Part shown: in pieces, positions 9,151-30,736 of the stretch
Layout of the letters: each line of letters begins with the position of its first letter
Position numbering within the stretch: the first letter of the stretch is position 1
From: Gluconacetobacter diazotrophicus PA1 5
GTDB lineage: Bacteria; Pseudomonadota; Alphaproteobacteria; Acetobacterales; Acetobacteraceae
DNA length: 64,000 nt
NCBI RefSeq assembly: GCF_000021325.1
Contig: NC_011365.1
Location: 1,584,501 to 1,648,500 of the forward strand
Reading direction: 5' to 3'
Program-made: the position numbers and the translations under genes
Notes under the pieces: model-generated
Database searches by the model: none
Told to the model about the DNA's origin: nothing
Seen by the model: only the letters and a program-made list of their open reading frames with translations

Positions 9151-9190
9151 AAATTTCCTCTCGTCCGATGGGGGTCTGGACGGAAAGATA

Positions 9191-9225: not shown

Positions 9226-9252
9226 TGATTCGTCTTGGAACCGGACAGGACT

Positions 9253-11275: not shown

Positions 11276-11323
11276 TGAAAGGCGGGAGCGACACCACGAT
11301 CATTCCCAGCAGGGGGAACCACC

Positions 11324-12112: not shown

Positions 12113-12116
12113 AGCG

Positions 12117-12144
12117 CGTGATGAGGTGATCCCACCTCATCACG
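12117..12144. terminator. Bidirectional hairpin between convergent VOC and efflux genes
   Basis: A perfect 12 bp inverted repeat, CGTGATGAGGTG/CACCTCATCACG with an ATCC loop, lies 4 bp after the VOC stop and 7 bp from the efflux-protein stop. It is placed to terminate both converging transcripts, although it has no strong T-run. Confidence 0.75.
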
Positions 12145-12151
12145 ATCTGCT

Positions 12152-14742: not shown

Positions 14743-17700
14743 GACGCGGCCCCGTTTTCCGGCGCGGGCGGGCGCGCACCCCGGCCATGGATCATCGAGA
14801 ACACCGCCGGCACGAACACGAGCGTCGCGGTCGTCGCGAAGCACAATCCGCCGATCACGGCCCGCCCCAGCGGCGCGTTCTGCTCGCCCCCCTCGCCCAG
14901 GCCGAGCGCCATCGGGACCATGCCGATCATCATGGCCAGGGCAGTCATCAGGACGGGACGAAACCGCGTATATCCGGCCTCGACCGCGGCGGTGTGCGCG
15001 TCCGAGCCCTCGCGGTCCATGTGGTCGCGGGCGAAGCTGACCACCAGGATGCTGTTGGCCGTCGCCACCCCGATGCTCATGATCGCGCCGGTCAGGGCCG
15101 GCACGCTGACCGGCGTGCCGGTCACGATGATGAACGCGTCGGTCCAGGACTGGAAATTGACGACGATCAGCAGATAGACCAGCAGCGTCGCGAAACCCAG
15201 GCCGGCATACAGCGCGGTGAAGGCCGTATTCATCGTTTCCGCCTGTCCCCGCACCGTGATCCGCGATCCGCGCGGCAGGTCCTTGTGCATGTCGGCGACG
15301 ATCCGGCGGATATCCGTCGCCACCGCGCCCAGGTCGCGATCCTGGGTCGTGGCGTAGAGATCGACCGTGGGCGCCACGTTGTAATGGGTTTCGACCGACG
15401 GCCCCACCCCGCGCAGGACCGTCGCGACGGCGCCGAGGATCTGGTTGCCCGCGCCGCCGGTGCCCCCGATCGGGATGTCGCGCAGGGTGTCGAGGGAATC
15501 GAGCTGGGGCTGCGGCGTCTGGGCAACCAGCGGGTAGGATACGCCGTTTTTGGTATCGAGCCAGAATGTCGGGTTGGTCTGGAACGTTCCGGTCAGCGAC
15601 ACCAGCAGGTCGTTGGCCACGTCGCGTTGCGTCAGGCCCAGTTCCGCCGCCCGGCTGCGATCGACGCGGACATCGAATTCGGGATAGTCGTACGCCTGCT
15701 GGATATGAGGGTCGGCAATGCCCGGCACGTGGCGGATGCGCGCCAGCAGGCGCTGCGCGTACCGGTTGTTGGCCGTCAGGTCGAAGCCCGCGACCTGAAC
15801 GTCGATCGGCGCCGGCGCGCCGAAATTCAGGATCTGGGTCACGATATCCGTCGGCAGGAACGCAAACGTGACGCCGGGAAACGCGGCGGCCAGGCTGCCC
15901 CGCAGCCGCCGCACATACTCCGCCGTCGGGCGGTGGGTGGCGGACAGGGTGATCAGGATATCGGCATCGGCGGCGGTGGTGGGGGCCGAAGTGCTGTAGG
16001 TCAGATTGATGCCGCTGACCGGCAGGCCGATATTGTCCACCACGCTGCCGATCTCGGCGGGGGGAATGACGGTACGGACGGCATCTTCCACCTGGTCGCA
16101 CAGGCGCGCCGTTTCCTCGACCCGCAATCCGGCGTGGGCGCGGACATGAAGCTTGATCTGTCCGCTGTCGACCGAGGGGAAGAAATTGCTGCCCAGCCAC
16201 AGGAACAGCAGCAGCGAGACCAGCATGAAGCCGAGAAAAAGAGGAACGAACACCGACCGGCGGGCGATGGTGCTTTCCAAGGTCCGGCGATAGCGGTCCC
16301 GCACGCCCTGGAAGCCGCGTTCGAATCCCTGCTGCCACCGCCGCAGCGGATTGCGCGGCGGCGCGTCCCCGTCGTGCGCCCCCTTTCCCTGGACCGGGTG
16401 CGGCTTGAGCCAGTATTTGGCCAGGGTCGGCACCAGGGTGCGCGACAGCAGGTAGGACGCGAACATGGCGAAGCAGATCGCCTCGGCCAGGGGCACGAAC
16501 AGATAGCGCGCGACGCCGCCCAGGAAGAACATCGGCGTGAACACGATGCAGATGCACAGCGTCGCGACGAAGGCGGGCACGGCGATTTCCTGTGCGCCGG
16601 CCAGGATCGCGGGCTCCACCTCCTCGCCGGCTTCCAGGTGGGCGTTGATGTTCTCGATGGCCACGGTGGCGTCGTCGACCAGGATGCCGACCGCCAGCGC
16701 CAGGCCGCCCAGGGTCATGATGTTGATCGTCTGCCCCAGGAAGAACAGCGCGATGATCGAACACAGGATCGACAGCGGGATCGAGATCGTGATGATGATC
16801 GTGCTGCGCCAGCTTCCCAGGAACAGCAGGATCATCAATCCCGTCAGCGCCGCCGCGATCGCGCCCTCGCGCACCACGCCGCTGATCGCGGCCTTGACGA
16901 AGACCGACTGGTCGCCGATCGGCGCGACGCGAAGCGCCGGCGGCGAACTGGCACGGATCAGCGGCAGCCGTCCCTTGATCTGGCTGATGATATCCAGCGT
17001 CGAGGCGTCACCGGTCTTCTGGATCGTCATCAGGGTGGCCCGGCGGCCGTCGACGCGGACGATGTTGGTCTGCGGCGCCGACCCGTCGCGCGCATGGGCG
17101 ACATCATGCAGATAGATGATGGTACCGTTGACGATGCGGATCGGCAGGTCGTTCATGTCCTGCGCCAGGACGGGGCTGCCGTTCAGCCGCACGTTGTACT
17201 CGAATTCGCCGACCTTCTCGGTCCCGGCGGGGATGATCAGGTTCTGGGCGTTGATGGTCGCGACGATGTCCTGCGCCGAGACATGCCGTTCGCGCATGCG
17301 GGACTGGTCGAGGTCGATCTGGATCTGCCGCTGCCGCCCGCCATAGGGAAAGGGAATGGACGCGCCCGCCACGCCCGCAAGCTGCGTCCGGACGAAATTG
17401 TTGGCCAGGTCGAACAGCCCCTGTTCGGTAATCGTCTGGCTGGACAGCGCCAGTTGGATGATCGGCACGCTGGACGCGTTGTAGGACAGGATGAAGGGCG
17501 GCGTGGTGCCGGGCGGCAATTGCCGCAGCCAGGCCTGCGCCACCGCCGTCACCTGGCTCATGGACAGGTCGACGTTGGCGCCCTCGTGGAAGAACAGCTT
17601 CACGACGGCCATGCCGGTGATCGACTGGGATTCGATATGGTCGATATCGTTGACCGCGACCAGCGACGCGCGCTCGAACCCCGCGGTGATCCGGCCGCTC

Positions 17701-17933
17701 ATTTCCTGGGGCGGCAGGCCGTTATAGGTCCAGATGACGCCGATGACGGGAATGCGGATGGCGGGGAAGATATCGGTCGCCATGGTGGCGATCGTCAGCG
17801 GCCCGAGGATGGCCAGCAGCAAAGCCAGGACGATGAACGTGTAGGGCCGGCTGAGCGCGATCCTGACGATCCACATCTTGTTGGTCTTCCCGATATCGCC
17901 AGGGGCATGTCGGTCCGTGGTTCGAGAGACCAT
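14739..17933 (-). CDS. RND-family proton-driven efflux pump (inner-membrane permease)
   Basis: This 1064-residue AcrB-fold permease has an N-terminal helix (WIVRIALSRPYTFIVLALLL), two large periplasmic loops and twelve expected membrane segments. The TM4 proton-relay aspartate pair is present (ALAVGILVDDATVAIENI). In TM10 the equivalent of the AcrB lysine is not seen: the segment reads SIGVATANSILVVSF. This subgroup therefore differs from classical hydrophobe/amphiphile exporters. It is the first gene of the operon with adaptor and NodT outer-membrane factor. A second in-frame ATG at 17876 (MWIVRI) is a plausible true start because the first 19 residues are not family-like. No regulator gene is adjacent, and the drug or solvent specificity cannot be read. 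Confidence 0.9.
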   Translation of the reverse strand: MVSRTTDRHAPGDIGKTNKMWIVRIALSRPYTFIVLALLLAILGPLTIATMATDIFPAIRIPVIGVIWTYNGLPPQEMSGRITAGFERASLVAVNDIDHIESQSITGMAVVKLFFHEGANVDLSMSQVTAVAQAWLRQLPPGTTPPFILSYNASSVPIIQLALSSQTITEQGLFDLANNFVRTQLAGVAGASIPFPYGGRQRQIQIDLDQSRMRERHVSAQDIVATINAQNLIIPAGTEKVGEFEYNVRLNGSPVLAQDMNDLPIRIVNGTIIYLHDVAHARDGSAPQTNIVRVDGRRATLMTIQKTGDASTLDIISQIKGRLPLIRASSPPALRVAPIGDQSVFVKAAISGVVREGAIAAALTGLMILLFLGSWRSTIIITISIPLSILCSIIALFFLGQTINIMTLGGLALAVGILVDDATVAIENINAHLEAGEEVEPAILAGAQEIAVPAFVATLCICIVFTPMFFLGGVARYLFVPLAEAICFAMFASYLLSRTLVPTLAKYWLKPHPVQGKGAHDGDAPPRNPLRRWQQGFERGFQGVRDRYRRTLESTIARRSVFVPLFLGFMLVSLLLFLWLGSNFFPSVDSGQIKLHVRAHAGLRVEETARLCDQVEDAVRTVIPPAEIGSVVDNIGLPVSGINLTYSTSAPTTAADADILITLSATHRPTAEYVRRLRGSLAAAFPGVTFAFLPTDIVTQILNFGAPAPIDVQVAGFDLTANNRYAQRLLARIRHVPGIADPHIQQAYDYPEFDVRVDRSRAAELGLTQRDVANDLLVSLTGTFQTNPTFWLDTKNGVSYPLVAQTPQPQLDSLDTLRDIPIGGTGGAGNQILGAVATVLRGVGPSVETHYNVAPTVDLYATTQDRDLGAVATDIRRIVADMHKDLPRGSRITVRGQAETMNTAFTALYAGLGFATLLVYLLIVVNFQSWTDAFIIVTGTPVSVPALTGAIMSIGVATANSILVVSFARDHMDREGSDAHTAAVEAGYTRFRPVLMTALAMMIGMVPMALGLGEGGEQNAPLGRAVIGGLCFATTATLVFVPAVFSMIHGRGARPPAPENGAAS

Positions 17934-17981
17934 AAGAGTCCGTGGCCACCGAGAGTTCCGGCGGCCGGTGGCGTAGGAGGC

Positions 17982-18015
17982 GGTCTTCGTTCTTTTTAAA
18001 AGAAAAAATTTTTAC
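17982..18015. repeat. T-rich hairpin element, copy 3 (3' of the Sel1-repeat gene)
   Basis: GGTCTTCGTTC is followed by TTCTTTT/AAAAGAA, a short perfect stem, and then an A/T run. It is related to copies at 3992, 9191 and 29650. It lies between the 3' end of the Sel1-repeat gene (stop at 18040) and the start of the RND pump, both on the minus strand, so it probably separates these transcripts. Confidence 0.45.
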
Positions 18016-18039
18016 GCATTCCCCAACCGTATGCCAGGA

Positions 18040-19608
18040 TCATGTAAGCTCCCGTAACGGCGCCTCCTCCGTGCCACAAGGCGATGACCGGCTAAGTATG
18101 CGCCGCGCATGCTTATGGCCACCAGATGCCGCTCGGCGATACCAGAGCGCGGCCTGTGCCATATTCGACCCGATTGCGCCTCGCTTGTGATGAAAACTCC
18201 CGAGTGCATACATGGCGCCGATGTGACCGGCCTTTGCGCCTTTGAAAAAAAACTCCCGAGCGAGGCCGGCGTCCGCCTTGCCTCCAAGACCGTTCATGAT
18301 CATTTGGCCCGCAGCGACGTGAGCCGTCACGATTCCCCCCTTAGAAGCCTTGATGAACAGTTCTCTGGCCATGACCATGTCACCCCCCTTCAAGGATCTT
18401 ATGCACAGCGCCAGGGCAAGATACGCCAACGGAATATCCTGGGCGCATAGGGCGTTGAGCTTCGCGAGGACGCGAGCCTGGAATTCGCCCGGATTCCGTA
18501 CGCTCGCGGCAAGCTTGCGCACGGCCGGTTCATATCCATGTTGCAGAGCCAGGAGATAACACTCTACGGCCTCGATGGACGTTCCGCCCGGCTCCTGAAG
18601 ACGCTCGATGGCCTCTCCCAGCCTGAAGATCGAAACCGGATCGCCATGTCCGGCTCCTATTTCATACCATCGCCTCATTTCATATGCATGGTGTCTGGCG
18701 GCATACATTTCGCCCAGAAGACGGCAGGCGCTCCAGTCTCCCTTGAGTGCTGCGCGTCTCAACCAGGTTTCCCCTGCTGTTCGATTGGGGGGACCACCAT
18801 GGCCGTCGAGCAGAAAAGTACTCAGGCGCATCATGGCCTTGATCACGCCGCCTTCGGCGGCCTGCCGGTACAATTCCCGGCTTCTGGACAGGTCTTTTTC
18901 CACTCCGGATCCGACTTCGTACAATCCACCCAGAAGATATGCGGCAACGGGACTTTTCTCCTCCATGGCAAAAAGAAGCGCCTTCTCCGCCTCCTTGAGA
19001 GCAGGAAGGCCCGCACTCCGAAACCGTAGGAGCGTTTGTCCAAGACCAAGTCCTGCCTTGCGGCTTCCCGCCTCCATCGCAGCCCTATAATGCTTTATGG
19101 CCATATCGATATCCTTATAGGCTGACCTCTCTAACGAATAGATATAACCAAGGCAGACGTGCCCTTCTGCCACGCCGCCCGCGATCGCCTTATTTGCCCA
19201 ATAAAGAGCCTTGTCAGTGTCAACATTGTTTCTGCCATGCCGCTCATCTTTAACCAGTCGAGCAACATGCGAAGCATCCTCGAAGTCGGGAAGCCCTTCG
19301 AGATACAGAAAGGAAAGCTTGGCCATAGCCTCGGCAATTCCGGCATCGGCCGCTGCAGTCAGCCTGCATAAAGCCTGTGCTCGGTTGCGCGGCACGCCTT
19401 TGCCTTCGAGATAGCAGAGTCCAAGCTGATACTGGGCTTCCGGTCTGCCTCTGTTCGCAGCTCCTAAGAAGCACTTCGCGGCTTTTACCCAATCCGCAAT
19501 TTGATCCGATGCCAGGTAGCGCTTTCCTTTTCCGTACAATCGGTTTCCCGGCAAGTACGTGTTTCTGTCGAAAATGTTTCGAAAAGAAACCACGACTGAC
19601 ATCCTCAC
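18040..19608 (-). CDS. Sel1-repeat (SLR/TPR-like) protein of the type I secretion locus
   Basis: This 522-residue alpha-solenoid is built of about nine or ten Sel1-like repeats of roughly 36 residues. Examples are AAKCFLGAANRGRPEAQYQL-GLCYLEGKGV, YLLGGLYEVGSG, RELYRQAAEGGVIKAMMRLS and ALWYRRAASGGHKHARRIL. No signal peptide is evident, so it is probably cytoplasmic. Sel1 proteins act as scaffolds in signalling or secretion; no catalytic motif is present. A GTG start at 19608 is preferred because AGGA lies nine bases upstream; an ATG at 19602 is the alternative. It follows the HlyD gene by 30 bp on the same strand, so it is probably co-expressed. Codon use looks more AT-rich than in the flanking housekeeping genes. 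Confidence 0.85.
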   Translation of the reverse strand: MRMSVVVSFRNIFDRNTYLPGNRLYGKGKRYLASDQIADWVKAAKCFLGAANRGRPEAQYQLGLCYLEGKGVPRNRAQALCRLTAAADAGIAEAMAKLSFLYLEGLPDFEDASHVARLVKDERHGRNNVDTDKALYWANKAIAGGVAEGHVCLGYIYSLERSAYKDIDMAIKHYRAAMEAGSRKAGLGLGQTLLRFRSAGLPALKEAEKALLFAMEEKSPVAAYLLGGLYEVGSGVEKDLSRSRELYRQAAEGGVIKAMMRLSTFLLDGHGGPPNRTAGETWLRRAALKGDWSACRLLGEMYAARHHAYEMRRWYEIGAGHGDPVSIFRLGEAIERLQEPGGTSIEAVECYLLALQHGYEPAVRKLAASVRNPGEFQARVLAKLNALCAQDIPLAYLALALCIRSLKGGDMVMARELFIKASKGGIVTAHVAAGQMIMNGLGGKADAGLAREFFFKGAKAGHIGAMYALGSFHHKRGAIGSNMAQAALWYRRAASGGHKHARRILSRSSPCGTEEAPLRELT

Positions 19609-19638
19609 TTAGAATTTTCCTGAAAGAATAAGTCCGTT

Positions 19639-21105
19639 TTACGGTTCCCTCATACCATCGGTAATAAGTGGCATTATACTATTCAGAAGGAATCGCATAA
19701 TGGTACGCTTGCCCACTTGAATATCGGCGGTGACGGGCATGCCCGGACGTGGGTGGAAAAACGACGGGACACCATGCAGCGTGTAACGCTCGATGCGCAG
19801 GCGCACGCGGTAATAGGATTGGGCGGCGTCGGCAGGGTCATTACTCTGAGCAGCCGCCCTTTCGGCGCTTGATGATGGTCCTTGTCCAGTCTGCCCATCG
19901 AACGTGTCGGCACTGATCTCGCGTACGGTCGCCTCGGCGCCGCCATATTGCGAGTATGGAAAAGTCGCGAATTTGAGGAGCGCCTTATTGCCGGGTTGTA
20001 CAAAGCCTGCGTCCTTGCCGCTCAGATGGGTTTCGACTTCGAGCCCGCTATCGATTGGAACAAGAGTCATCAGTTCCGAGCCGGTGGTGAGGACGGATCC
20101 GGTCGACAGTTTAGCAATCGTCAAGACGATGGCGTCGTTCTGGGCCTTCAGGACGGTCATGCTCTTGCGGAGCTTCGCCTTCTGATAGTCGCTGTCAGCC
20201 GTGGAAAGCTTGTGCTGGGCATCGCTCAGGTCGTGATAGATGTCGGCTTTCCACGTTTCGATATAGCCTTGCCGCTCGGCGACCAGCGCCTGCAGCTTGC
20301 TTCGGACGGACGCGCCGTCGTGCTGCGCCAGGATTTCGGATCGCGTTACCTCCATCAGGTCGTTTTGAGCGCTTAGCGTGGAGAGGCGGCTTCCAACCTG
20401 GTCGGCCTGCAAGCGTGCCCGCATCGCACGAACGTCGTTTGCGACCTTGACGCGCGCCGCATACATATCGGCATTGGCCAGGTCCCCCTGGAGATCGGCG
20501 GTCTGGGACGCGATCTGTTCCTGATAGTTGGCGATTTTTGCGTCGAACTCCGCTTTTCGGCGCAGAAATGTCTCCGCCTGTTGTGTCGAGGCAGGATTGT
20601 CTCGATCCGGTTTGTAGTCCCGACCTTGCGCTTCGGCGGAGAGACGCGCGACCTCGGCGCCGTAGCTCTGGGTCTGCGATCGCAGGTCCTCGATATCGGC
20701 GTCATTGACAGTAGGATCGAGTCGCACCAGCACCTGCCCCTTATGAACGAGGTCGCCTTCATGCACGTCGATACTATGAATGATCGACGTTTCGAAGGGC
20801 TGCACGACGAGGGGCTGCTGGGTGGATATGATCTTGCCGGTGGTGGACACCACCCGGTTCAGAGGAAATACCGCCATGAACACAATGCTGCTCGCGGTCA
20901 GGGCCCCGATCAGCCAGGAGATGTATTGTGCCGCTGGCGTCGGCGGCATATTGACGAGCGCGGTGGTCGGTGAATGAAACTCGATCAGCGCTGGCGGCAG
21001 GTCGGCGAAGGAAAACGGATCAGCGGCCCGGGGCAGAAAATCCTTCGTCTTCTCGATCTCGTCCTTTTTGCCGACAGCGGGCGGCGCGATCTCCTGGATG
21101 TTCAC
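19639..21105 (-). CDS. HlyD-family type I secretion periplasmic adaptor
   Basis: This 488-residue membrane-fusion protein spans from the inner membrane into the periplasm and links the ABC exporter to TolC. After a cytoplasmic tail of about 60 residues there is one membrane helix (SWLIGALTASSIVFMAVFPL), then the lipoyl motif GKIISTQQPLVVQPFETSII...EGDLVHKGQVLVRLDPT. A long coiled-coil hairpin (about residues 140-330) and a C-terminal beta-barrel with the HlyD signature RPGMPVTADIQVGKRTIMRFLL complete it. The start is a GTG at 21105, only two bases after the ABC stop, indicating coupling. It lacks the second lipoyl half found in RND adaptors, as expected for the HlyD class. Confidence 0.93.
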   Translation of the reverse strand: MNIQEIAPPAVGKKDEIEKTKDFLPRAADPFSFADLPPALIEFHSPTTALVNMPPTPAAQYISWLIGALTASSIVFMAVFPLNRVVSTTGKIISTQQPLVVQPFETSIIHSIDVHEGDLVHKGQVLVRLDPTVNDADIEDLRSQTQSYGAEVARLSAEAQGRDYKPDRDNPASTQQAETFLRRKAEFDAKIANYQEQIASQTADLQGDLANADMYAARVKVANDVRAMRARLQADQVGSRLSTLSAQNDLMEVTRSEILAQHDGASVRSKLQALVAERQGYIETWKADIYHDLSDAQHKLSTADSDYQKAKLRKSMTVLKAQNDAIVLTIAKLSTGSVLTTGSELMTLVPIDSGLEVETHLSGKDAGFVQPGNKALLKFATFPYSQYGGAEATVREISADTFDGQTGQGPSSSAERAAAQSNDPADAAQSYYRVRLRIERYTLHGVPSFFHPRPGMPVTADIQVGKRTIMRFLLNSIMPLITDGMREP

Positions 21106-21107
21106 GA

Positions 21108-23465
21108 TCAGCCTCCCTCAGCAACCACTGGCGCGAATTCGGTCTCGCTCGCGCGGCGAGCGCCGGCGCGACGTTCCGTGTGCCTATTCTGCTGCATCCA
21201 AAGCGTACGATAGATCGTACAGCGCTCCAGCAATGCTTCGTGTGATCCGATATCCGCGACCCGCCCGTGTTCCATGACCAGAATCTGGTCGCAATTCACC
21301 AGCGATGAAAGACGGTGAGAGACGATGATCATCGTGCGTCCCTTGCCCATGCGCTCGATATTGGCGCTGACGAGGGCTTCGCTCTCGGGATCGAGCGCGG
21401 AAGTCGCCTCGTCGAGGATCATCAATTTCGGATCCGAAATCAGAGCGCGGGCGATCGCGAGGCGTTGACGTTGGCCGCCTGAGATGTTGGTCGATCCTTC
21501 CTCGATCCAGGTCTCGTAGCCGGCGGGAAGGCGCTCGATGAACTCCTCGGCGCCCGCGAGCCGTGCCGCCCGCACGACGTCGTCAATGGTCAGCCCCGGC
21601 CGGCCGGCAGCGATATTGTCGCGTATCGTACCTCGAAACAGGAAATTATCCTGAAGCACCACGCCAAGGGAGCGGCGAAGATGGGTCAGGTTGATTTCGC
21701 GCAGATCGACCCCGTCCAGCTTCAGATAGCCTTCGTAGGAGCGGCTGACGCCTTGCAGCAGGCGGGTAATGGTCGACTTCCCGGAACCGGAACGACCGAC
21801 CAGACCGAGCATCGTCCCGGCTGGAAGCGCGAAACTGACGTCGTTCAGAGCCTTTGTCGTGGAGCCGGGATAGGTAAAGTTCACGTCGGTGAACGACAGC
21901 GCCCCCTTGATGGGTGGGCGCATGCCTTCGGTGAGCGCCTTCGTCTCGGTGGACTGGTTGAGCACGGAACCCGCTTCGGCAAGCGAGGTCGTCACTTCGT
22001 TCAGATCGTCGAGCAGCCGCGCCACGCCCACCAACGGCGCCGCGACGCGTCCCCCGAGCATCATGAAGGCGACCAACGCACCGACGCCGACAGTGCTGGC
22101 ATTGGTCAGCGCAAGATAGGCTCCCACAAGGATGATGCCACGATTGATGAACATCTCCAGCGGCATGGTCACTGTGGTCGGCCAGTTCGCGATGCGTCCG
22201 ACGGAGAGCTTCCATCGGACGACGTCGGCGGTGCGACGATCCCATTCCTGCTTGCGGGCTGGTTCGAGCGCCAGGGTCTTGACCGTCCGGATTCCGGCTA
22301 CGGTTTCGTAAATGACCGAGGATCGTTCTGCCTCAGCCTTGACGAGCCTGCCATAGATACGACCGACGGGCCGCATGAACACGGCGATGACCAGGCCGAT
22401 CATCCCGGCGGTCGCCACTGTCATCCATGCCAGGGTCGAACTGAGATAGAAGAGGAAGGGCAGAATGACCACTAGCGTAAACATATCGAGGAACGTCGAC
22501 ATAAGCCGTCCGGTCATGAAGTCCCGGACCTTGTAGATCGCCATCACCCGGCCGATAATGTTGCCGGCCTGCTGCTGTTCAAAATATTCGAGAGGTAACG
22601 CCAGGAGGCGATTGAATAGATGGAGCGATATTCTGGCATCGATCCGTGTCGTCAGAATGAGCGTCAGTTCGCGTCGCCCGAAGGACAGCAGGATCTCGTA
22701 AAACGAAAGCATCAGAACGATGGCCGCGATGGAGACAAGTGTCGTCATCGAGTGGTTGTTCACCACGCGGTCGATGACCTGCATGACCGCCAGTGGCGGG
22801 AAAATCTGCAGGACGCTCAAGGTCAGGGAGGAGAAGGTAATATCGCGCAGCGATTTCTTCTCGCGTAGCACCATCCTGGCCAGCCAGGCCATGTTGATCG
22901 GCGCATCCATCTCGCTCTGATCCTGCCGGCGTTTGATCAGGATGATATCGCCATTCCAGATCTCCGACAGCCGCATTTCGTCTATGGGAACTGGCGGCTC
23001 CGCTTCATGCGCCATCGGGTCGCGCAGCCAGATAACGCCGCGCTCGGTCTCCGCATTCACCATCAGCGCGGCGGAGCCATCCCGGAACATCAGTACAATC
23101 GGCGGGGAGTTACGCATCCGGACGAGATGACGCCATTCGACCCGCATTCCTTTGGCCACTGCCCCCTGTTCATTCAGCCATCGGACCAACGTGGCGGACG
23201 AGGGCGATTGTTCACCCGGCTCCGCCATGAAATCAAGCACATCGAGTTGTAGTCCGTGGAAACGGCCGGCGGCGATTACCGCTCGCAGCCTGATTAGGGC
23301 AGGCGTTTCCTGTTCTCTCTGGCTTGCATATGTACCTTTGTTATTGTCGCCGGTTACCCCACCCAAATCATGGTCCTGGTCCTGGTCGGCAGCAGCAAGC
23401 ACATCATCGGCTAAATCCACAGATCGTCCTCTACAATGTTCACTAATACCAACGGTTATAGGCAT
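21108..23465 (-). CDS. Type I secretion ABC exporter with degenerate C39-like domain; 5' end altered by IS630
   Basis: The protein is 785 residues if translation begins at the ATG at 23465. The order is a C39-like N-terminal domain (about residues 55-190) without the catalytic Cys of true bacteriocin peptidases, a five- or six-helix ABC membrane domain, and an ATPase. The ATPase has Walker A GLVGRSGSGKSTI, signature NISGGQRQRLAIARAL and Walker B LMILDEATSALD. This is the LapB/RTX-exporter type that moves unfolded substrates with a C-terminal signal. The first seven or so codons lie inside an IS630 terminal repeat. The native frame upstream of the insertion had a GTG (now beyond the IS) shortly after a stop, so the original start was probably lost or displaced. 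An internal GTG shortly after the IS junction could also be used. Confidence 0.9.
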   Translation of the reverse strand: MPITVGISEHCRGRSVDLADDVLAAADQDQDHDLGGVTGDNNKGTYASQREQETPALIRLRAVIAAGRFHGLQLDVLDFMAEPGEQSPSSATLVRWLNEQGAVAKGMRVEWRHLVRMRNSPPIVLMFRDGSAALMVNAETERGVIWLRDPMAHEAEPPVPIDEMRLSEIWNGDIILIKRRQDQSEMDAPINMAWLARMVLREKKSLRDITFSSLTLSVLQIFPPLAVMQVIDRVVNNHSMTTLVSIAAIVLMLSFYEILLSFGRRELTLILTTRIDARISLHLFNRLLALPLEYFEQQQAGNIIGRVMAIYKVRDFMTGRLMSTFLDMFTLVVILPFLFYLSSTLAWMTVATAGMIGLVIAVFMRPVGRIYGRLVKAEAERSSVIYETVAGIRTVKTLALEPARKQEWDRRTADVVRWKLSVGRIANWPTTVTMPLEMFINRGIILVGAYLALTNASTVGVGALVAFMMLGGRVAAPLVGVARLLDDLNEVTTSLAEAGSVLNQSTETKALTEGMRPPIKGALSFTDVNFTYPGSTTKALNDVSFALPAGTMLGLVGRSGSGKSTITRLLQGVSRSYEGYLKLDGVDLREINLTHLRRSLGVVLQDNFLFRGTIRDNIAAGRPGLTIDDVVRAARLAGAEEFIERLPAGYETWIEEGSTNISGGQRQRLAIARALISDPKLMILDEATSALDPESEALVSANIERMGKGRTMIIVSHRLSSLVNCDQILVMEHGRVADIGSHEALLERCTIYRTLWMQQNRHTERRAGARRASETEFAPVVAEGG

Positions 23466-24607
23466 TGACCTGTGTGTGCCCATTTTCTGAGTCCGATGGA
23501 TCGGATGGTTTCCGGCAGGGCAGTGAGATTGTTCCAGGCGCAGCAGGCGGCGTCGATGATGTGATCGATGCCGTCGAAGACGGTGTTGGACAGCCAGTTG
23601 GCGCGGAGGAACTGCCAGATATTCTCGACCGGGTTCAGTTCGGGGGCTCGGGACGGGAGGAAGATCAGGCTGACATTGCGGGGCAGCTTCAGCTTGTCGG
23701 TGGTATGCCATCCTGCGCGATCGAGCAGCACGACGGCGTGGGCGCCGCGGGCGACGCAGCGCGAGATTTCCTCGATATGCAATTGCATGCTGGCGGTGCC
23801 GATGAACGGTAGCGCCAGGCCGGCGGCCTTGCCGCGCGCAGGGCAGATCGCTCCGAACAGCCAGGCATTGTCGTAGCGCTGGTCGGCCGGCTGGCGTGGC
23901 CGCGTGCCGCGCCGGGCCCATTGTCGGACGATGCCGTTCTTCTGGCCGATGCGGGCTTCGTCCTGGAACCAGATCTCGACCGGTTTTCCCTTCGGCAGAT
24001 GGCCGGTATGAGCGCTCAGGATGCGGGGGAAGTTTTTTTGAACGCTTCCATGACGGCAGCGTCCTGACCCGGATGGCGCGGCCGGGCGGTGATATAGGAA
24101 AAACCAAGCCGTTTCAGCAAAGTGGACACATGACGCTCGTGATAGACGACGCCGAAGCGCTCTTCGATCACGCGTTGCAGATCGACCCGGCGCCAGCGCA
24201 CCACGCCATCGCGCTGCCGATCCGGGCCCGCCTCGACCAGGGCCTTCAATTCGGTCTGCTGTGCGACACTCAGACGGCAGGCCGGCCCCGTGTGCTGATG
24301 GTCGCGCAGGCCATCGGGTCCCTCGGTATTGAAGCGATGCACCCAGTCCCGCAACGTCTGGCGGTCCATGCCGCCTACGCGGGCCGCGTCCGTCCGGCTG
24401 GCCCCGTCACGGATCGCCGCCAGGGCCAGAAGCCGGCGCGCGGCATTCGCCTGCCGGCTTCTGGTCGCAAGTCTCCTCAGGTCAGAGGCCGAATAATCAT
24501 CCCGTAGCTTCACCGCCCTCGTCATCAGCCAGATCCTCCCCCAGCAAGAGAATCAGAACCCACACCGTTCGTCACTTCACACACGAGTCAGGGGCTGCGT
24601 CCTTTGG
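23449..24607 (-). mobile_element. IS630-family insertion sequence
   Basis: The 1159 bp element is flanked by TA dinucleotides at 23447-23448 and 24608-24609, the TA duplication expected of IS630/Tc1-mariner elements. The outer ends CCAACGG (left) and CCAAAGG (right, complement) match at six of seven bases. A second matched block, GTGTGTG, lies about 30 bp in from each end (23472-23478 and its complement at 24578-24584). The transposase lies on the minus strand and its stop is inside the left end. Insertion is at the 5' end of the type I secretion ABC exporter gene, in the same orientation. Removing it restores ...CACTAATATAATGC... at the junction. Confidence 0.9.
23456..24525 (-). CDS. IS630-family DDE transposase, two frames joined by a -1 shift at an A7 run
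   Basis: The first frame (24525 to 24016, 169 residues) has an N-terminal helix-turn-helix (LLALAAIRDGASRTDAARV...RQTLRDWVHRF). The second frame continues after a -1 shift and carries the catalytic DDE residues in WFQDEARIG, VVLLDRAGWH and PELNPVENIW, ending GLRKWAHTGQCL at 23456. The shift point is a run of seven A on the coding strand (complement of 24033-24039) in TTC AAA AAA ACT. The stop of frame one follows only a few codons later. Such A-runs are typical programmed frameshift or transcription-slippage sites in IS630 relatives. A simple disabling deletion of one A cannot be excluded from sequence alone. Confidence 0.88.
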
Positions 24608-24609
24608 TA

Positions 24610-24954
24610 TAATGCACGGGTCAGCGATGGCGCCGTCTCGGTTAGCATAGCCGCACATTGAACGAGCCGCGAGATACAGTACTGGTCTATAAAGACGATC
24701 CCGGGTAGAGGGGACACCGCCCCTTCAGATACAGTGGGGATGTTCCGGAACACCCATGCTGTATGGAGCCTGATTACGTCCTATCCTACCGTCACGGCAA
24801 CAAGGGCTCAAAAGCTGGCTGACCCAGGAGCGTCTCCCCGACCGCGCTGGGGACAAGAAACACTTATGCTCCTGGCCTATACAGAAGAGAACGTTGATCT
24901 ACTTGTACAAAACGGTCCTGTCTTCGCAGGGGACAGGACCGCGCAATCAACTGG
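24610..24954. other. Noncoding region between IS630 and the RTX-like gene
   Basis: These 345 bp hold no convincing gene. Before the IS insertion this was the upstream region of the ABC exporter, so its native promoter is expected here, but I cannot place -35 and -10 boxes with confidence. It contains a perfect 12 bp palindrome, TGTTCCGGAACA, at 24741-24752 and, at the right end, the terminator of the RTX-like gene (24909-24941). Confidence 0.6.
24909..24941 (-). terminator. Rho-independent terminator of the RTX-like gene
   Basis: On the minus strand the perfect 10 bp stem CGGTCCTGTC/GACAGGACCG (9 nt loop) is followed by TTTTG. It begins 14 bp after the stop of the RTX-like gene, making that gene a separate transcription unit from the exporter. 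Confidence 0.85.
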
Positions 24955-26028
24955 TTACGATGCCACGACTGTGTTAGCGGATTTATCATCGGTCAAGACG
25001 CCTGCTGCGACAGTATCGTGCGTTCCGAGCATCGTCGCGAGACTGCCGCCGGAATATGACAAATCGCTCGACGGACCGGGGCTTGTAGTGGCGGCCGACG
25101 TTGATCCGCTGGCATTGTTGAGGGCGATGACAGCCGAGTCAGCAAGCATCGAAGCATGCAGCCCTGCTCCATTCGCAATGGATGCCAGGGCGCTGCTGGC
25201 ATCCGTCGAGGCAGCAGAGGAAGTCGTGTCGTCGTTGGTCCACGCCGGTGCTGAATTCTCTACTGAAGATGAATAGGTGACGCCTCCTATGTTCACGGAA
25301 GATACATCTGTCAACTCGATGAATTTTCCATTTGCTGTGTCCTGGAGAAGCCAGTTGGACCCATCGTTCATATAGGAGTTTCCGTTGGTATCCTCATAGC
25401 CCCCTTCGTAGTCAGACAAGGCGTCGCTGGCATAATAGATATCGTTGCCACCCTCTGTTGTAATTATGTCATCGCCTGCGCTTTGGTAAAAGATGTCGTT
25501 CCCGGTTCCTTCATACAAGTAGTTTATTTGGTTTGATCCGGTAAATATATCATTTCCGTCCGAACCGTGAATATTGACGTGGACATTTTCGTTGTCCCAC
25601 ACGCCTGTCGAACTATTCCACTGTTCGAATGTCGTTCCCGAAAGATCCATGGTCTGGCCAGCCGAAGCGTAGTCCGACATGCTCAGACTATCGCTGACTC
25701 CACCAAAGTAAATTACGTTGGCTGCGCTTCCAGCCCCGGGGCTATACTCGAAAAGGCCGACGTCGGTGTAATCCGTCGTTATGTAAATAGCCACTTCCTG
25801 CGTACTGCTGGGAGTCGTAATGCCGCCGAGCCAGAGCGATCCCATCCAATATCTATAGCCACCGAGATCAACGTCACCGGACCCAGGAGTGTATTGGTTC
25901 TCTGTAAGGGTTATTAGGCCGTTATATCCATTTGCATCGACCTGCGTCAGGCCAATATCTCCCGTCAGCTGGATGTCCGTATCTGACGTCGAAAAATCTG
26001 ACGTTTCATTATAGACTGCCGTCACCAT
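24955..26028 (-). CDS. Small RTX-like protein, probable type I secretion substrate
   Basis: This 357-residue protein is acidic, contains no cysteine and has no N-terminal signal peptide. Residues about 154-200 contain four degenerate RTX-type calcium-binding repeats (GSDGNDIF, GTGNDIF, AGDDII, GGNDIY). The C-terminal 100 residues are Ser/Ala/Thr/Gly-rich, ending in a short hydrophobic tail (TVVAS), consistent with an uncleaved C-terminal secretion signal. It is transcribed alone (its own terminator follows) and sits between the ABC/HlyD genes and the TolC gene. RTX proteins fold on extracellular calcium. The N-terminal 150 residues, rich in Tyr, Asp and Thr, match no domain I recognise, so the extracellular function (adhesin, enzyme, biofilm matrix) is unknown. 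Confidence 0.75.
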   Translation of the reverse strand: MVTAVYNETSDFSTSDTDIQLTGDIGLTQVDANGYNGLITLTENQYTPGSGDVDLGGYRYWMGSLWLGGITTPSSTQEVAIYITTDYTDVGLFEYSPGAGSAANVIYFGGVSDSLSMSDYASAGQTMDLSGTTFEQWNSSTGVWDNENVHVNIHGSDGNDIFTGSNQINYLYEGTGNDIFYQSAGDDIITTEGGNDIYYASDALSDYEGGYEDTNGNSYMNDGSNWLLQDTANGKFIELTDVSSVNIGGVTYSSSVENSAPAWTNDDTTSSAASTDASSALASIANGAGLHASMLADSAVIALNNASGSTSAATTSPGPSSDLSYSGGSLATMLGTHDTVAAGVLTDDKSANTVVAS

Positions 26029-26244
26029 GATCCTTAACCCCCTTTAGCAACGAACAATTACGCCAAAAAAGCCAAGTTTAAACTTTCAGATGTTTCGAAG
26101 ATGCGCAAGGCAGTGAAAAATAAAAATATAGATACGTTTCATTCGTTTTGCGCATAGAAACGCCGTTCTGAATTTAATTGCAATCCCTTGGGACTTCCGC
26201 TTATGGTTTTCCCTATTAGAAAATTTGGCCTTGGGAGGCGGGAC
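26029..26244. promoter_or_regulatory. AT-rich divergent promoter region of the two candidate secreted proteins
   Basis: This 216 bp spacer separates the RTX-like gene (minus) from the Cys-free hypothetical gene (plus). It is distinctly AT-rich (for instance 26110-26160) compared with the core genome, and it must contain promoters for both. GGGAGG at 26234-26239 is a strong ribosome site for the plus-strand gene. A shared regulator is possible but no clear operator was read. Confidence 0.45.
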
Positions 26245-26958
26245 ATGGGAGTAATACCGGCAACGTCATCGGAAAATCAAGCGTACGATGCTTGGGCCGA
26301 AATCCAGGAGTCGTTTTATTTGGGCGGTTATGGGGGAAAACCGACAGCGGAGGCAGCCTCGGATACGACCGTAACAGATACTTCGGGCAATGGATCTGCG
26401 CTGTCCGTCAGCCTTGCTACTTCGACCAAAGAATACAACAGCGATGGGGTCAGAGTGGTGCTGCCTGCGGATAGTGGAATTAGCGCGAGCAGCGTCCCTC
26501 TAGGGACGACGATTAACGGAATGCCTGCGAGTGAGGAGGCAGGCGCTTCATTCATCGACATTCAGAGTCAGGTGGACGTCTCTACAATATCTTTATCTGC
26601 TCTTTATACGGCCGCAGGAAAAACGGCCAATGGAGAATCGGACACGGAGACGGCGGCCTTGCTCGCACAATTCGTCGCGACATCTGGCGGTTCGCAGGGC
26701 CCGATCTCATGGGCGGAAGAACCCGATGGAACGATCGAGTTTGCCACCTATTCACAGTCGGCCACCCCCTATAGCGACAATGGGGCCGGCTCATCAGGGT
26801 ATGGAACTGGAGACTCCGGCAGCACCGTCGCTTCGACCACGTCTGCCGATCCGGTTTCGACGAAACGGACCGGCCAAAGCAGCCTGCTTGATCAGTTATT
26901 CCAGATCTCGGACCAAAAACACAAATCTGGAAACAATGAGAGTTCCAAAAATACCTAA
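26245..26958 (+). CDS. Cys-free Ser/Thr/Gly-rich hypothetical protein; candidate second type I substrate
   Basis: The protein is 237 residues from the ATG at 26245, chosen for the ribosome site GGGAGG 5-10 bp upstream; the frame also opens at 26188. There is no signal peptide, no membrane helix and no cysteine. The composition (Ser, Thr, Ala, Gly, Asp) resembles the tail of the neighbouring RTX-like protein, but no calcium repeats are present. The C-terminus is hydrophilic and Lys/Asn/Ser-rich (QKHKSGNNESSKNT). I recognise no family. Its divergent location between exporter and TolC genes suggests a secreted product or a chaperone/regulator of secretion. That role is inference. Confidence 0.6.
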   Translation: MGVIPATSSENQAYDAWAEIQESFYLGGYGGKPTAEAASDTTVTDTSGNGSALSVSLATSTKEYNSDGVRVVLPADSGISASSVPLGTTINGMPASEEAGASFIDIQSQVDVSTISLSALYTAAGKTANGESDTETAALLAQFVATSGGSQGPISWAEEPDGTIEFATYSQSATPYSDNGAGSSGYGTGDSGSTVASTTSADPVSTKRTGQSSLLDQLFQISDQKHKSGNNESSKNT

Positions 26959-27468
26959 ATGAGGGCGCCTATTACATGGACGCGGCTCCCGTCCGCGACC
27001 CGATAGCCCAAGTTGCCACCACCATATCCGAAGGCCACCGGTGACCAAAGGGTTGAGATTAAGTAAGAGTTCAGCTTTAGCTTAATTGTGACTCCGTTAG
27101 CCTGTAATGTCGGCCCCCATCGCCACGCGAACCGGATAAAATGGGTCGATTGTCGCTTTTAATGGCGCTTGCGTCACGTTCGGCAATTGTCTGATCGCTG
27201 GTGACGGCGGCTTAGCTGGGAGGCTGCTTTGTGCCAAGTTAATATACAGACTGGAGATACCACCCCGTACCCGTATGTCAGTTTCCCCGATATCTGAGAC
27301 ACGCATGGGCCCGATCTGCAGTTGAATAGGTCGATACCAATCCCAATCCCTAGCTTTTGCCCAGAGAATGCTTCGAACTTACTCTTGTATGGAATACGCT
27401 TCGAAAAAAGCGGACGTTACTCAAATGTCCGTGCGTGGACAGACTGCAGCGGGGTTTTCATTAAACTG
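26959..27468. other. 510 bp without a confident gene, upstream of tolC-like gene
   Basis: The base composition is mixed and AT-leaning. A 69-codon minus-strand open frame (27097-27306, beginning MRVSDIGETDIRV) has no recognised family, and no ribosome site was identified for it. The frame of the TolC-like protein is open back to a TTG at 27322, but the added residues do not look like a signal peptide. The promoter of the tolC-like gene should lie here. No terminal repeats or transposase remnants were seen. Confidence 0.5.
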
Positions 27469-28911
27469 ATGAATACTGCTGTTGTTCGCGTGACGCTTGC
27501 TGCAATTGCCGTCGTGATACTGATAAACATGGGCGATGCGCGCACTCGGGACGATCAGAGTCGTCTGACCAGCTTTGTCCCGCACTCCCTGTTCGATTCT
27601 CTGGCCATCGCCTACTTGACGAATCCCACCCTGCGGCAGGAGCGTGCGATGCTCCGCGCGCAGGACGAGGGTGTGCCTACGGCCCTGGCGGGCTGGCGGC
27701 CCCAGATTTCAGGACAGGCCGGCGTGACCTATTACGACGGGCGAAGCAACTATCGCGGCACAGGCGATTATCTCGGATATTCCCGGATCTATTCGACTCC
27801 AGGTTATAGGGCTGGTGTCGATATTCAACAGCCGGTCTATTCCGGCGGAAAGACTACCGCCTCCACCCATCAAGCCGTCAACAAGGTGATGGCGGAACGA
27901 GCCAACCTGATCTCGGTCGAGCAGAAAGTCTTCCAGGCGGTCGTCAAAGCCTATATCGGCGTTGTCGATGACACGCAATTGCTCAGGATCAATCAAGGCA
28001 ATGAGCGCGTGCTGGCCGATCAGCTTCGGGCGACGAAAACGCGCTTTCGCGATGGCGAGATCACCCGCACCGACGTAGACCAGGCCCAGGCGGCGCTGGC
28101 TGCCGCTACGTCACAGCGCGAGCGGGCCGAGGGAACACTGGATGCGGCCCGCGCAGCCTATCTTCAGGTCGTAGGCGTAACCGCGCCCGCTGATCTGCTG
28201 CCGCCACAGCCGCTGGCCCTCCCGACGATGTCGGACGAGGAGGCGGGGGCATTGGCCGCGCAGAACCATCCGGACGTCATCAATGCGCTATTCACCCAGT
28301 CGGCGCAGAAGGACGCCGTTGATGTCGCGATTTCGGCTCTTATGCCCACATTGACGGCGGAGGTGGCCTATCAACGTGGAGTCAATCAGGGCCTCGGCGG
28401 CCAGTTTACTGAAAACAAATATGCCGCATTGACGATGCAGGTTCCTCTCTATCAAGGCGGATCGGAATACGCCGCGATCCGTCAGGCCCGGCAGCAGGCG
28501 CAGGCTGGACAGCAAGCCGTCGATGCCCAACGCCGAGAAGCGACTCAGTTGGCGTCCACGGCGTGGCACCAGCTCCTGTCCGCACGAGCCTCCGTTGTCA
28601 GTGATCGCTTGGCCATCACAGCCAGTACGGCCGCACGTGATGGGGTCCGGCGTCAGGCGTTGGAAGGCGTGAGTACAACGCTGGAGGTTTTGCAACAGCA
28701 AGAGGCCCTGCTGCAATCTGAAGTGACGCTGATTCAGGATTTAGGCGCCCTGGTCACTGCATCCTACGACGTGGCGGCGGCCATCGGGCGATTGACCGCG
28801 GTGGATCTGAACCTGAGCGTCCCACTCTACGATGAGAAAGCTTATTACCGGGCGGTCAAGGACCGTCTGTGGAGCATGAATGATTTCGCGCGTAGCCAAC
28901 CCGGACGCTGA
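27469..28911 (+). CDS. TolC-family outer-membrane channel of the type I secretion system
   Basis: The protein is 480 residues from the ATG at 27469, which places a signal peptide (MNTAVVRVTLAAIAVVILINMGDA) at the N-terminus. It has the two-fold repeat of outer-membrane efflux domains (first about residues 40-240, second 260-460). TolC landmarks are YLTNPTLRQERAMLRAQDEGVPTALAGWRPQIS, GVDIQQPVYSGGKT and TRTDVDQAQAALAAATSQ; NQQ/QG features occur in the second half (LTMQVPLYQGGSEYAAIRQARQQ). It has no lipobox, unlike the NodT-type protein in this window. It forms the outer-membrane duct for the ABC-HlyD pair encoded divergently on the minus strand. A lipoprotein gene follows by 120 bp. Confidence 0.9.
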   Translation: MNTAVVRVTLAAIAVVILINMGDARTRDDQSRLTSFVPHSLFDSLAIAYLTNPTLRQERAMLRAQDEGVPTALAGWRPQISGQAGVTYYDGRSNYRGTGDYLGYSRIYSTPGYRAGVDIQQPVYSGGKTTASTHQAVNKVMAERANLISVEQKVFQAVVKAYIGVVDDTQLLRINQGNERVLADQLRATKTRFRDGEITRTDVDQAQAALAAATSQRERAEGTLDAARAAYLQVVGVTAPADLLPPQPLALPTMSDEEAGALAAQNHPDVINALFTQSAQKDAVDVAISALMPTLTAEVAYQRGVNQGLGGQFTENKYAALTMQVPLYQGGSEYAAIRQARQQAQAGQQAVDAQRREATQLASTAWHQLLSARASVVSDRLAITASTAARDGVRRQALEGVSTTLEVLQQQEALLQSEVTLIQDLGALVTASYDVAAAIGRLTAVDLNLSVPLYDEKAYYRAVKDRLWSMNDFARSQPGR

Positions 28912-29031
28912 CGTGCTCGCGCGAAATCCGCCTATCCACTGTTTTTCATCATTATGCAGGATCTTCGACGACCATTATGTTCGTTCTGTCGTTCGTAAAC
29001 AGTTTCCGGTGACGCCGGCGTGCTGACGGTG

Positions 29032-29565
29032 ATGAGCGATGACACGCGGTCAGGAAGGCAGGACCGATATCGAATGCCCCGGGCGGTCCTCCCCTTGCTG
29101 GGGTTGATGACGCTTTCGGCATGTTCGGGAATCGGTATGTTTGCCTCCGACAGCTTCAGTTTTCCCGGTGCCAATCCGAACCACCCGCCCGGCGACGCGG
29201 AAAATCTGCGGCGCGTGCGCGGAGATTCCGTCGCGATCAAGCCCCTTACGCCTGAACCCGGCAATATCTGGCCTGACGCGCTTGACAAGCTGTCCGCTGC
29301 TGACGGGAAGGATTTCGCAGGTGACGAGAGGGACGCGCAGGCGGAGTTGTTGCCTGGGGAAAGCCTCGGTCTGGGGGAAGAGGCCGCGATCAGAAACGGC
29401 GTACAGATTGCCGATACCCCGATCCCGAAGACGAAAACGCCCGATAGGAACAATCGCGTCGCGCCAGACGGTGATACGATGATAATTCCTAGCAGCGATG
29501 GCGGCAGCACTGTGATTTCAGCCAACGGTGAGGTTAGAATTATAAAGGGCGGAGCCCGACAATGA
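29032..29565 (+). CDS. Small lipoprotein following the tolC-like gene
   Basis: The protein is 177 residues from the ATG at 29032; an ATG at 29074 (MPRAVLPLLGL) gives a tidier signal peptide, and a GTG at 29020 is a third option. The lipobox is LSAC (LMTLSAC-SG), so the mature protein is lipid-anchored. The rest is hydrophilic and proline-rich (PNHPPGD, TPEPGNIWPD, IPKTKTPDRN), ending in a short beta-like segment (STVISANGEVRIIKGG). I recognise no family. Its position after tolC suggests an accessory outer-membrane component of the secretion system or a substrate-retention factor, which is inference from context. Confidence 0.68.
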   Translation: MSDDTRSGRQDRYRMPRAVLPLLGLMTLSACSGIGMFASDSFSFPGANPNHPPGDAENLRRVRGDSVAIKPLTPEPGNIWPDALDKLSAADGKDFAGDERDAQAELLPGESLGLGEEAAIRNGVQIADTPIPKTKTPDRNNRVAPDGDTMIIPSSDGGSTVISANGEVRIIKGGARQ

Positions 29566-29649
29566 ACGAGCATGGAACATAGTCATCCGCCTTCTCGTGC
29601 GACGCACGTTCCTGGCGCCGCCACCATGTGGCCCTCTGATCCGATGAAT

Positions 29650-29691
29650 AAAGTCTTCTTGCTTCTTTTTCGTAGGACCAAAGAAGAAACC
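29650..29691 (+). repeat. T-rich hairpin element, copy 4 (between lipoprotein and cysA ends)
   Basis: AAAGTCTTCTTGCTTCTTTT on the plus strand closely parallels the minus-strand copy at 3992 (AAAGTTTTTTGGTTCTTTTT). CTTCTTT and AAAGAAG can form a stem. It lies between two convergent gene ends, so it probably acts at transcript ends. Confidence 0.5.
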
Positions 29692-29695
29692 ATCT

Positions 29696-30736
29696 TCATT
29701 CGAACCCCAGACATACCCCGTCGCGAAAGATGCGGGCCCGCGCGATATCGAGGGCGACGGGCCCGGCGGCATCCGCCTGCTCCGGGGGGGCCAGGATTTC
29801 GACGTCGCGCTGTCCCAGCGCGACGTGAAACCGGCGGAGACCGTGCTGGCGGCCCTTCAGCGGGGTGGCGGCGGCGGTCCCCCTGCCCTCGACCAGACGC
29901 ACCTCGTGCGGGCGGACCAGGGCCGACGCGGGGCCGTCCTGCGCCGTGGTGGACAGGGGCAGGACGTTCGCATCGTCCGGGTGAAACAGCCCCTGCGCGA
30001 TCCGGCCGGGAAATGCCAGGGCTTCGCCCAAGAATTCCATCACGAAGGGGGTCGCGGGCGCGGTATCCAGCGTTTCGGCATCCGCGTCCTGCACGATCCG
30101 GCCGTCCTGCATCACGACCAGGCGGTCCGCCACGTCCAATGCTTCCTCGTGATCATGGGTGACCAGGATGGTGGTCAGGCCCAACTGGTCGCGCAGCCAG
30201 CGCCGGATCTGGCGGCGCACGATGGGGTCGAGCGCGCCGAAGGGCTCGTCCAGCAGCAGCAGGCCCGGCCTGGTCGCCAGCGCCCGCGCCAGGGCCACGC
30301 GCTGGCGCTGGCCGCCGGACAGCTGGTCCGGATAGGCACCGCCCAGCGTCGGCAACTGGATCAGGTCCAGCAGTTCCGTCACCCGTGCCGCGATCGACGC
30401 GCGGTCCGGCCGATCCCGCCGGGGCAGGACGTCCAGGCCGAAGGCGATGTTGCGCGCCACGGTCATGTGACGGAACAGCGCGTAGTTCTGGAACACGAAC
30501 CCGATCCGGCGGTCGCGCATGGACCGTCCCGCCAGCGGCAGGCCATCGACATGCAGCGAACCCTCCTGCCGGCCGCCCAGGCCCGCGATCGCGCGCAGCA
30601 GGGTGGTCTTGCCCGCGCCGGACGGGCCGACCAGGGCGATGAAGGCACCGTCTTCCACTGTCAGCGAAATGTCGTCCAGAAGCTTGCGCGAAGTGCCGGG
30701 GGCGTATTGGGTCAGGGACTCGAGCTGCACGCTCAT
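29696..30736 (-). CDS. cysA: Sulfate/thiosulfate ABC transporter ATPase
   Basis: This 346-residue ATPase drives sulfate import on the cytoplasmic face. Walker A is GPSGAGKTTLLRAI (about residue 37), followed by the Q-loop FVFQNYALFRHMTVARNIAFGL, the signature LSGGQRQRVALARAL, Walker B LLLLDEPFGALD and the H-loop THDHEEALDVADR. A C-terminal TOBE-like regulatory region follows, including an LVRPHEVRLVEG segment typical of CysA. The ATG at 30736 overlaps the cysW stop (ATGA). It is the last gene of the cysP-cysT-cysW-cysA operon. Confidence 0.94.
   Translation of the reverse strand: MSVQLESLTQYAPGTSRKLLDDISLTVEDGAFIALVGPSGAGKTTLLRAIAGLGGRQEGSLHVDGLPLAGRSMRDRRIGFVFQNYALFRHMTVARNIAFGLDVLPRRDRPDRASIAARVTELLDLIQLPTLGGAYPDQLSGGQRQRVALARALATRPGLLLLDEPFGALDPIVRRQIRRWLRDQLGLTTILVTHDHEEALDVADRLVVMQDGRIVQDADAETLDTAPATPFVMEFLGEALAFPGRIAQGLFHPDDANVLPLSTTAQDGPASALVRPHEVRLVEGRGTAAATPLKGRQHGLRRFHVALGQRDVEILAPPEQADAAGPVALDIARARIFRDGVCLGFE

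Follow-up and report, generated by a model that had tools for sequence, protein, structure and literature searches.

We analysed a seven-gene block in Gluconacetobacter diazotrophicus PAl 5 (genome of 3,914,947 bases, chromosome of 3,887,492) that encodes the parts of a type I secretion system together with a Sel1-repeat protein. The window, by which we mean the whole stretch of 64,000 nucleotides under study, corresponds to C1:1,584,501-1,648,500 of the Joint Genome Institute (JGI) sequence, which, according to a passage of PMC3035290, is the PAl 5 sequence that agrees better with the optical map. Within the block the sel1, hlyD and abc genes and a gene for an RTX-like protein lie on the minus strand, with abc-hlyD-sel1 downstream of the RTX-like gene, while a gene for a 237-residue protein, tolC and a lipoprotein gene lie on the plus strand. 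The features are as follows:

~17970..29693 (ends +/- ~25 bp), no strand: inserted island of ~11.7 kb, placed by the flanks shared with genome G215 and by GC content
18040..19608, minus: sel1, 522-residue Sel1-repeat protein (PF08238, E=1.8e-35)
19639..21105, minus: hlyD, 488-residue membrane-fusion adaptor (TIGR01843, 321 bits against a cut-off of 208.7)
21108..23420, minus: abc, 770-residue exporter ATPase/permease with a GTG start (PF00664, PF00005)
23427..23432, minus: likely ribosome-binding site of abc, AGAGGA, read by eye
23444..24613, no strand: IS630-type insertion sequence (IS), separating the exporter gene from that of the RTX-like protein (DDE_3, E=5.7e-12; HTH_33, E=2e-22)
24955..26028, minus: candidate cargo, 357-residue Cys-free RTX-like protein (family D; PF00353, E=0.0013)
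26245..26958, plus: candidate cargo, 237-residue Cys-free protein (family C), without a family match, with paralogues
27469..28911, plus: tolC, outer-membrane channel, likely ATG start read by eye (PF02321, E=1.3e-50)
29074..29565, plus: lipoprotein gene, likely ATG start and lipobox LSAC read by eye; product 62% identical to that of the G. sacchari cassette described below

All seven genes named in the original prediction were found as open frames, although the IS630 element had been missed. Export through an ABC exporter, an HlyD-type adaptor and a TolC channel is established for type I secretion, and all three parts are present here, with TolC scoring 250.7 bits against TIGR01844 (cut-off 225.2), which upholds the claim that the island encodes an entire type I secretion system, TolC included. 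The exporter scored 532 bits against the HlyB model TIGR01846, under its cut-off of 725.6, and also fell under the cut-off of the LssB model (TIGR03375). No Peptidase_C39 match was listed in Pfam for the exporter at E<=1, in agreement with the earlier statement that its C39-like domain lacks the catalytic cysteine. The system thus resembles the HlyB/HlyD/TolC exporters of RTX proteins in having an exporter without a detectable C39 peptidase, HlyD, TolC and Cys-free candidate substrates in which no signal peptide was seen, and differs from them in its sub-threshold ABC scores, its conserved Sel1 protein and its own lipoprotein. The GTG at 23,420, read by eye in a start region common to the window and the copy in G. 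johannae, is the exporter start, rather than that of the 999-residue open reading frame in the program-made list, which runs into the IS630 element. The sel1 gene directly follows hlyD, and its product, in which no signal peptide was seen by eye, is probably cytosolic.

The block is a bounded insertion, apparently of acquired DNA. In G215, a genome of the same species that we take to be the RioGene sequence of PAl 5, the flanks align up to ~17,968-17,971 and resume at 29,694-29,717, the two flanks being adjacent with 2 or 28 bases between the alignments (two alignments), and ~17,970-29,693 is absent. Measured over 2-kb windows, GC content ranges from 52-61% within the block to 62-73% clear of it, which bears out the earlier remark that the block is more AT-rich than its surroundings. 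The flanks of the window and G215 are 96-98% identical, and from this we infer that the two differ by strain divergence and not merely by assembly error; the 2-4% by which the two published PAl 5 sequences differ in the island flanks (L094 versus window 16,500-31,500) likewise suggests two different strains rather than assembly errors alone. Inspection by eye of the list of open reading frames and of the junctions, no dedicated repeat search having been run, showed neither an integrase nor any clear repeat at the termini, and no tRNA lies at the island ends, the single Rfam match in the window at gathering score being a tRNA at 2246. ARAGORN additionally called a tRNA-Ile on the minus strand at 48,120-48,204 that Rfam did not call at gathering score. 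T-rich motifs of the form GTCTTC...CTTTTT occur at both island ends (17,983-18,005 and 29,653-29,690), each exact form once in the window.

The original prediction regarded Sel1 as a non-standard addition to a type I system, and comparison of loci contradicts this. A contig scan with an HlyD alignment gave 21 loci, of which one, a 26% hit, was left out; in all 20 remaining loci of acetic acid bacteria abc precedes and a sel1-type gene follows hlyD, with L029 and L031 ending within sel1 at a contig end and the sel1 matches of L034 and L036 falling in two pieces. A gene for a TPR-glycosyltransferase matched in 16 of the 20 (L029 and L031 are cut, and L022, of island type, and L040 are without a match). 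In a second set of 40 loci from the family, picked down the match list and including some close kin of the first set, abc was found at 40, a sel1-type gene at 38, the glycosyltransferase gene at 36 and a gene for a 374-residue protein at 34, where L176 stops at a contig end and some of the glycosyltransferase and 374-residue misses are also contig ends. HlyD of the island kind (E<=1e-60) is present in 224 of 299 sampled genomes of the family. A profile of the island Sel1 matched 132 of 200 genomes from the order at E<=1e-20, the listed matches all belonging to the same family, and in 40/40 genomes whose coordinates were compared, hlyD and the best Sel1 match were 34-388 bp apart. The Pfam Sel1 gathering score was passed by all eight proteins tested, drawn from core, small-contig and outside-family loci (L010, L023, L028, L032, L041, L009, L189 and L190), and the proteins of the window and L040 matched besides. 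Outside the family, three plasmid hits of 106 records were examined, and in those of Azospirillum brasilense and Mesorhizobium ciceri sel1 follows hlyD. Sel1 is therefore a regular partner of this exporter family. The prediction was real, partly misread and more general than it had seemed: the island is a mobile version of an operon for type I secretion that is itself widespread.

The genome itself carries two additional abc-hlyD-sel1 sets. That on the chromosome (L010, C1:3,155,839) is 73/59/32% identical to the island in ABC/HlyD/Sel1 and represents the core operon, in which sel1 is followed by a gene for a protein with TPR, GT2 and GT4 domains and then by that for the 374-residue protein; by eye, this stretch (L010 9,810-19,549; G000:C1 ~3,155,800-3,165,500) adjoins metH-like and purF-like genes. 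The Acetobacteraceae core operon abc-hlyD-sel1-glycosyltransferase-374 aa, for which no established name is known to us, shares its exporter family and gene order with the island, which differs in carrying tolC, the lipoprotein gene and cargo candidates and in having a very different Sel1. No glycosyltransferase or 374-residue gene follows sel1 in the list of open reading frames of the window, and neither was matched in L009, L022 or L040. The second set (L009) lies on contig 2 (27,455 bases), which we take to be a plasmid. It is 88% (ABC), 78% (HlyD), 58% (Sel1) and 58% (RTX-like) identical to the island, with the RTX-like homologue ~2 kb beyond sel1, and differs from it in having a tolC remnant of 63 residues, no 237-residue gene and the extra Cys-poor families A, B and E. 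Synteny of all seven genes, which the original prediction had named as possible support, is not conserved: the only other copy found with the island layout is the decayed one of G. johannae, where the 237-residue gene is broken and tolC is missing between it and a lipoprotein fragment.

The Sel1 protein of the island has not evolved in step with the exporter. Mean identities between the island and six Acetobacter loci are 80% for ABC, 72% for HlyD and 28% for Sel1, whereas the chromosomal copy L010 averages ~74/61/52% against the same six. In an HlyD tree of 56 rows the three island-type copies (those of the window, G. johannae and the small contig) group together (support 100/100), within a ten-row set (100/100) that also includes the six Acetobacter rows and G295; in a Sel1 tree of 54 rows the same three are split from the 51 others by a branch of length 3.28 (100/100). 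The island exporter thus groups with Acetobacter core operons and its Sel1 does not track it, the simplest account of which is that Sel1 was replaced, or changes very fast, outside the glycosyltransferase context. We also considered whether the N-terminal C39-like domain of the exporter co-diverges with Sel1, and a by-segment check said little: that segment is the least conserved in island-Acetobacter pairs (70-71% versus 80-84% and 89-91%) and also in two Acetobacter pairs (79% versus 86-87% and 93-95%).

A further cassette was found in G. sacchari (L040), where tolC-abc-hlyD-sel1-lipoprotein form one collinear run followed by a homologue of dextran dextrinase. Its proteins are 80% (TolC), 69% (ABC), 58% (HlyD), 62% (lipoprotein) and 32% (Sel1) identical to those of the island, and it too is without a glycosyltransferase match. 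The last gene, ~350 bases past that of the lipoprotein, encodes a 1,284-residue Cys-free protein with a GH15 domain that matches dextran dextrinase 9ju0 at E=0 (residues 1-907 versus a 923-residue chain). Dextran dextrinase is a known extracellular enzyme without a signal peptide, present on the cell surface as well, and by analogy the GH15 enzyme is likely the cargo of the G. sacchari cassette. This arrangement suggests that TolC, Sel1 and the lipoprotein belong to a single cassette for type I secretion.

Both candidate substrates beside the exporter in the window contain no Cys, as had been noted, and no signal peptide was seen in either. Models for serralysin and polyurethane esterase matched the RTX-like protein weakly and in part. 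Its homologues, both in open frames, are 72% (G. johannae) and 58-59% (small contig) identical to it. Family D matched 12 of the 299 genomes, at full length in the window genome and G. johannae, the other ten matches being partial and confined to the repeat region. For the 237-residue protein no Pfam match was found at E<=1, nor any NCBIfam, PHROGs or PADLOC match at E<=0.01; the earlier description of it as belonging to no known family thus holds for database families, yet it has a 47% paralogue in its own genome and a 57% relative in G. johannae. Family C is present in 4 of the 299 genomes, one match being weak (E=9.4e-4), as is family A in 4. Plasmid searches with the RTX-like or the 237-residue protein gave no match, and a common C-terminal secretion signal, sought by eye, was not established. 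Structure prediction from three-row alignments was poor for both, with a mean predicted local distance difference test score of 40.2 for the RTX-like and 37.0 for the 237-residue protein. The RTX-like protein is likely cargo; the 237-residue protein may be so less surely, given that its relatives are mostly found apart from exporters.

Taken together, we favour, at a probability of about 0.6, the reading that the block is a type I secretion cassette, gained by horizontal transfer, in which Sel1 would act as cargo adaptor and the RTX-like protein, and less surely the 237-residue protein, would be cargo. The ABC-HlyD-TolC channel would move Cys-poor, signal-less proteins from the cytosol to the outside in one step, and the candidate cargo would likely be cell-surface or matrix proteins. 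The adaptor role of Sel1 is proposed because of its operon position, its solenoid nature and its discordant evolution: encoded last in the abc-hlyD-sel1 operon, it most likely binds cargo in the cytosol and presents it to the exporter, and it would have been exchanged along with the cargo. In the core operon, where it is encoded next to the TPR-glycosyltransferase, it may also join cargo and glycosyltransferase. In the accessory cassettes, where no glycosyltransferase gene is present, Sel1 would have been replaced or rebuilt, and a dedicated TolC, lipoprotein and putative cargo are encoded, the lipoprotein probably aiding the outer-membrane step or holding cargo at the surface.

A number of observations weigh against this reading. 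Among the operons, L179 and a Rhizobium anhuiense plasmid have abc-hlyD without sel1 after hlyD, and a passage of PMC6558740 describes acetic acid bacteria, two ant isolates excepted, as almost wholly lacking Sel1 domains, at odds with the Sel1 genes that we find next to hlyD. A passage of PMC8156966 gives 2-3 Sel1 proteins per Asaia genome; both passages treat Sel1 numbers and not the abc-hlyD-sel1 operon. In the titles and abstract openings of literature on Sel1, type I secretion, Gluconacetobacter and dextran dextrinase, we found the link undescribed. The exact place of the island clade within the ten-row HlyD set is weak (82/38) and the island Sel1 rows were flagged for unusual composition, so that fast divergence and replacement of Sel1 are not separable. 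The three less usual genes, on whose company with the exporter the original prediction was staked, also behave differently: sel1 goes with the exporter, while family C lies beside it at 2 of 5 clear places (one broken) and away from it at 3. The lipoprotein family, present in 212 of 299 genomes, is linked to HlyD by co-occurrence (192 with both, 32 HlyD only, 20 lipoprotein only, 55 neither; Fisher p=5e-21; 186/19/26/68 without 19 weak-HlyD genomes), a statistic that ignores kinship, and by its place in the G. sacchari cassette; no adjoining tolC, abc or hlyD match was found within ~1.5 kb flanks at 11 other lipoprotein loci (L099-L109). The other lipoprotein copy in the window genome directly follows a pgsA-like gene by eye. 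A tolC gene of G215, between pcm-like and valS-like genes by eye, is not beside an exporter operon. As to cargo, the gene called RTX-like in the original prediction is indeed present, and its product reaches 19.1 bits against PF00353, below the gathering score of 23. Nine members of the candidate families contain 1 Cys in 2,411 residues versus 23.5 expected from thirteen other genes, these nine having been chosen after being seen, and HlyD contains 0 Cys in 488 residues, so that Cys-poverty is not specific. Finally, four sequenced neighbouring open reading frames of the G. oxydans dextran dextrinase gene include no exporter, and hence the link between exporter and dextran dextrinase rests on the G. 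sacchari locus.

The IS630 element sits immediately in front of the exporter operon, its edge ~11 bases from the abc ribosome-binding site (AGAGGA). This also counts against a working cassette and bears on the strongest of the alternatives, that the island is decaying and its exporter operon a silenced relic whose genes persist by chance. The transposase is encoded in two minus-strand open reading frames (24,016-24,525 and 23,456-23,788) with DDE_3 and HTH domains; three further full-length copies occur in the genome at 91-92% identity, the corresponding spot in G. johannae is empty, and related elements are found on plasmids of acetic acid bacteria. The element separates the exporter operon from the region upstream of it and could leave the local exporter silent or IS-driven, in which case the two paralogous exporters and the other tolC of the genome could stand in for it. 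The broken G. johannae copy, the 63-residue TolC remnant on the small contig and the absence of the island from G215 speak for decay. Yet all seven reading frames of the window are open, both other copies keep an open frame for the RTX-like protein, at 59-72% identity, and the IS may supply a promoter, although a scan near it was uninformative (5 promoter-like sites versus 3.1 expected, none inside the IS) and no site stood out. We regard a relic as unlikely while granting it appreciable weight.

Somewhat less probable again is that both Cys-free proteins are cargo of other machinery. Five Cys-poor families (A-E) recur in mixed company: the island carries C and D, the small contig has A, B, D and E, the chromosomal locus L021 has C, B and A, and in genome G060 families B and A come after a further Cys-free gene. 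At the chromosomal locus, relatives of the 237-residue protein stand with families A and B and no exporter was seen in 20 kb, families B and A recur without an exporter in G060, and no shared C-terminal signal was shown, all of which would fit a different route. The RTX-like gene, in contrast, is close to the exporter operon in each of the three copies of island type (window, G. johannae and small contig), and families A and B are near an exporter on the small contig. The three Cys-free proteins at L021 are clustered at 8,203-16,071 (G000:C1 ~334,200-342,100), with a TPR-glycosyltransferase-like gene and a gene for a 647-residue Hint-like protein as neighbours by eye, and a family A gene in G142 (L186 9,527-9,943) lies upstream of conjugation-like genes by eye, a hint of plasmid spread.

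It is doubtful that Sel1 is instead a regulator or stress scaffold merely placed in the operon. Its best named profile is indeed ExoR, at 65 bits far under the NCBIfam cut-off of 450; ExoR is periplasmic, whereas no signal peptide was seen in Sel1, and neither its regular site after hlyD across the family nor a divergence pattern unlike that of the exporter is what such a placement would lead one to expect. Antibacterial or effector export, which was the suggestion of the original prediction alone, is very improbable, as no toxin, immunity or defence family matched the two candidates and no PADLOC or PHROGs match to the proteins given favours a defence or phage reading.

A wider and more tentative proposal, to which we would give less than even odds, is that these operons form an alphaproteobacterial subclass of type I secretion in which a dedicated cytosolic Sel1/TPR solenoid selects cargo, the glycosyltransferase of the core operon is coupled by it to the exporter so that glycosylation precedes one-step export, and mobile cassettes retain ABC and HlyD but swap Sel1 with cargo, so that Sel1 rather than the exporter would set specificity. 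To our knowledge, how type I exporters choose their cargo and whether some use dedicated adaptors are open questions. Genetics could address them directly in this operon, which is widespread, regularly encodes Sel1 next to a glycosyltransferase and has natural variants with divergent Sel1. The operon could also explain how dextran dextrinase and other signal-less proteins of acetic acid bacteria leave the cell, and in a sugarcane endophyte that fixes nitrogen it provides a candidate system for surface proteins.

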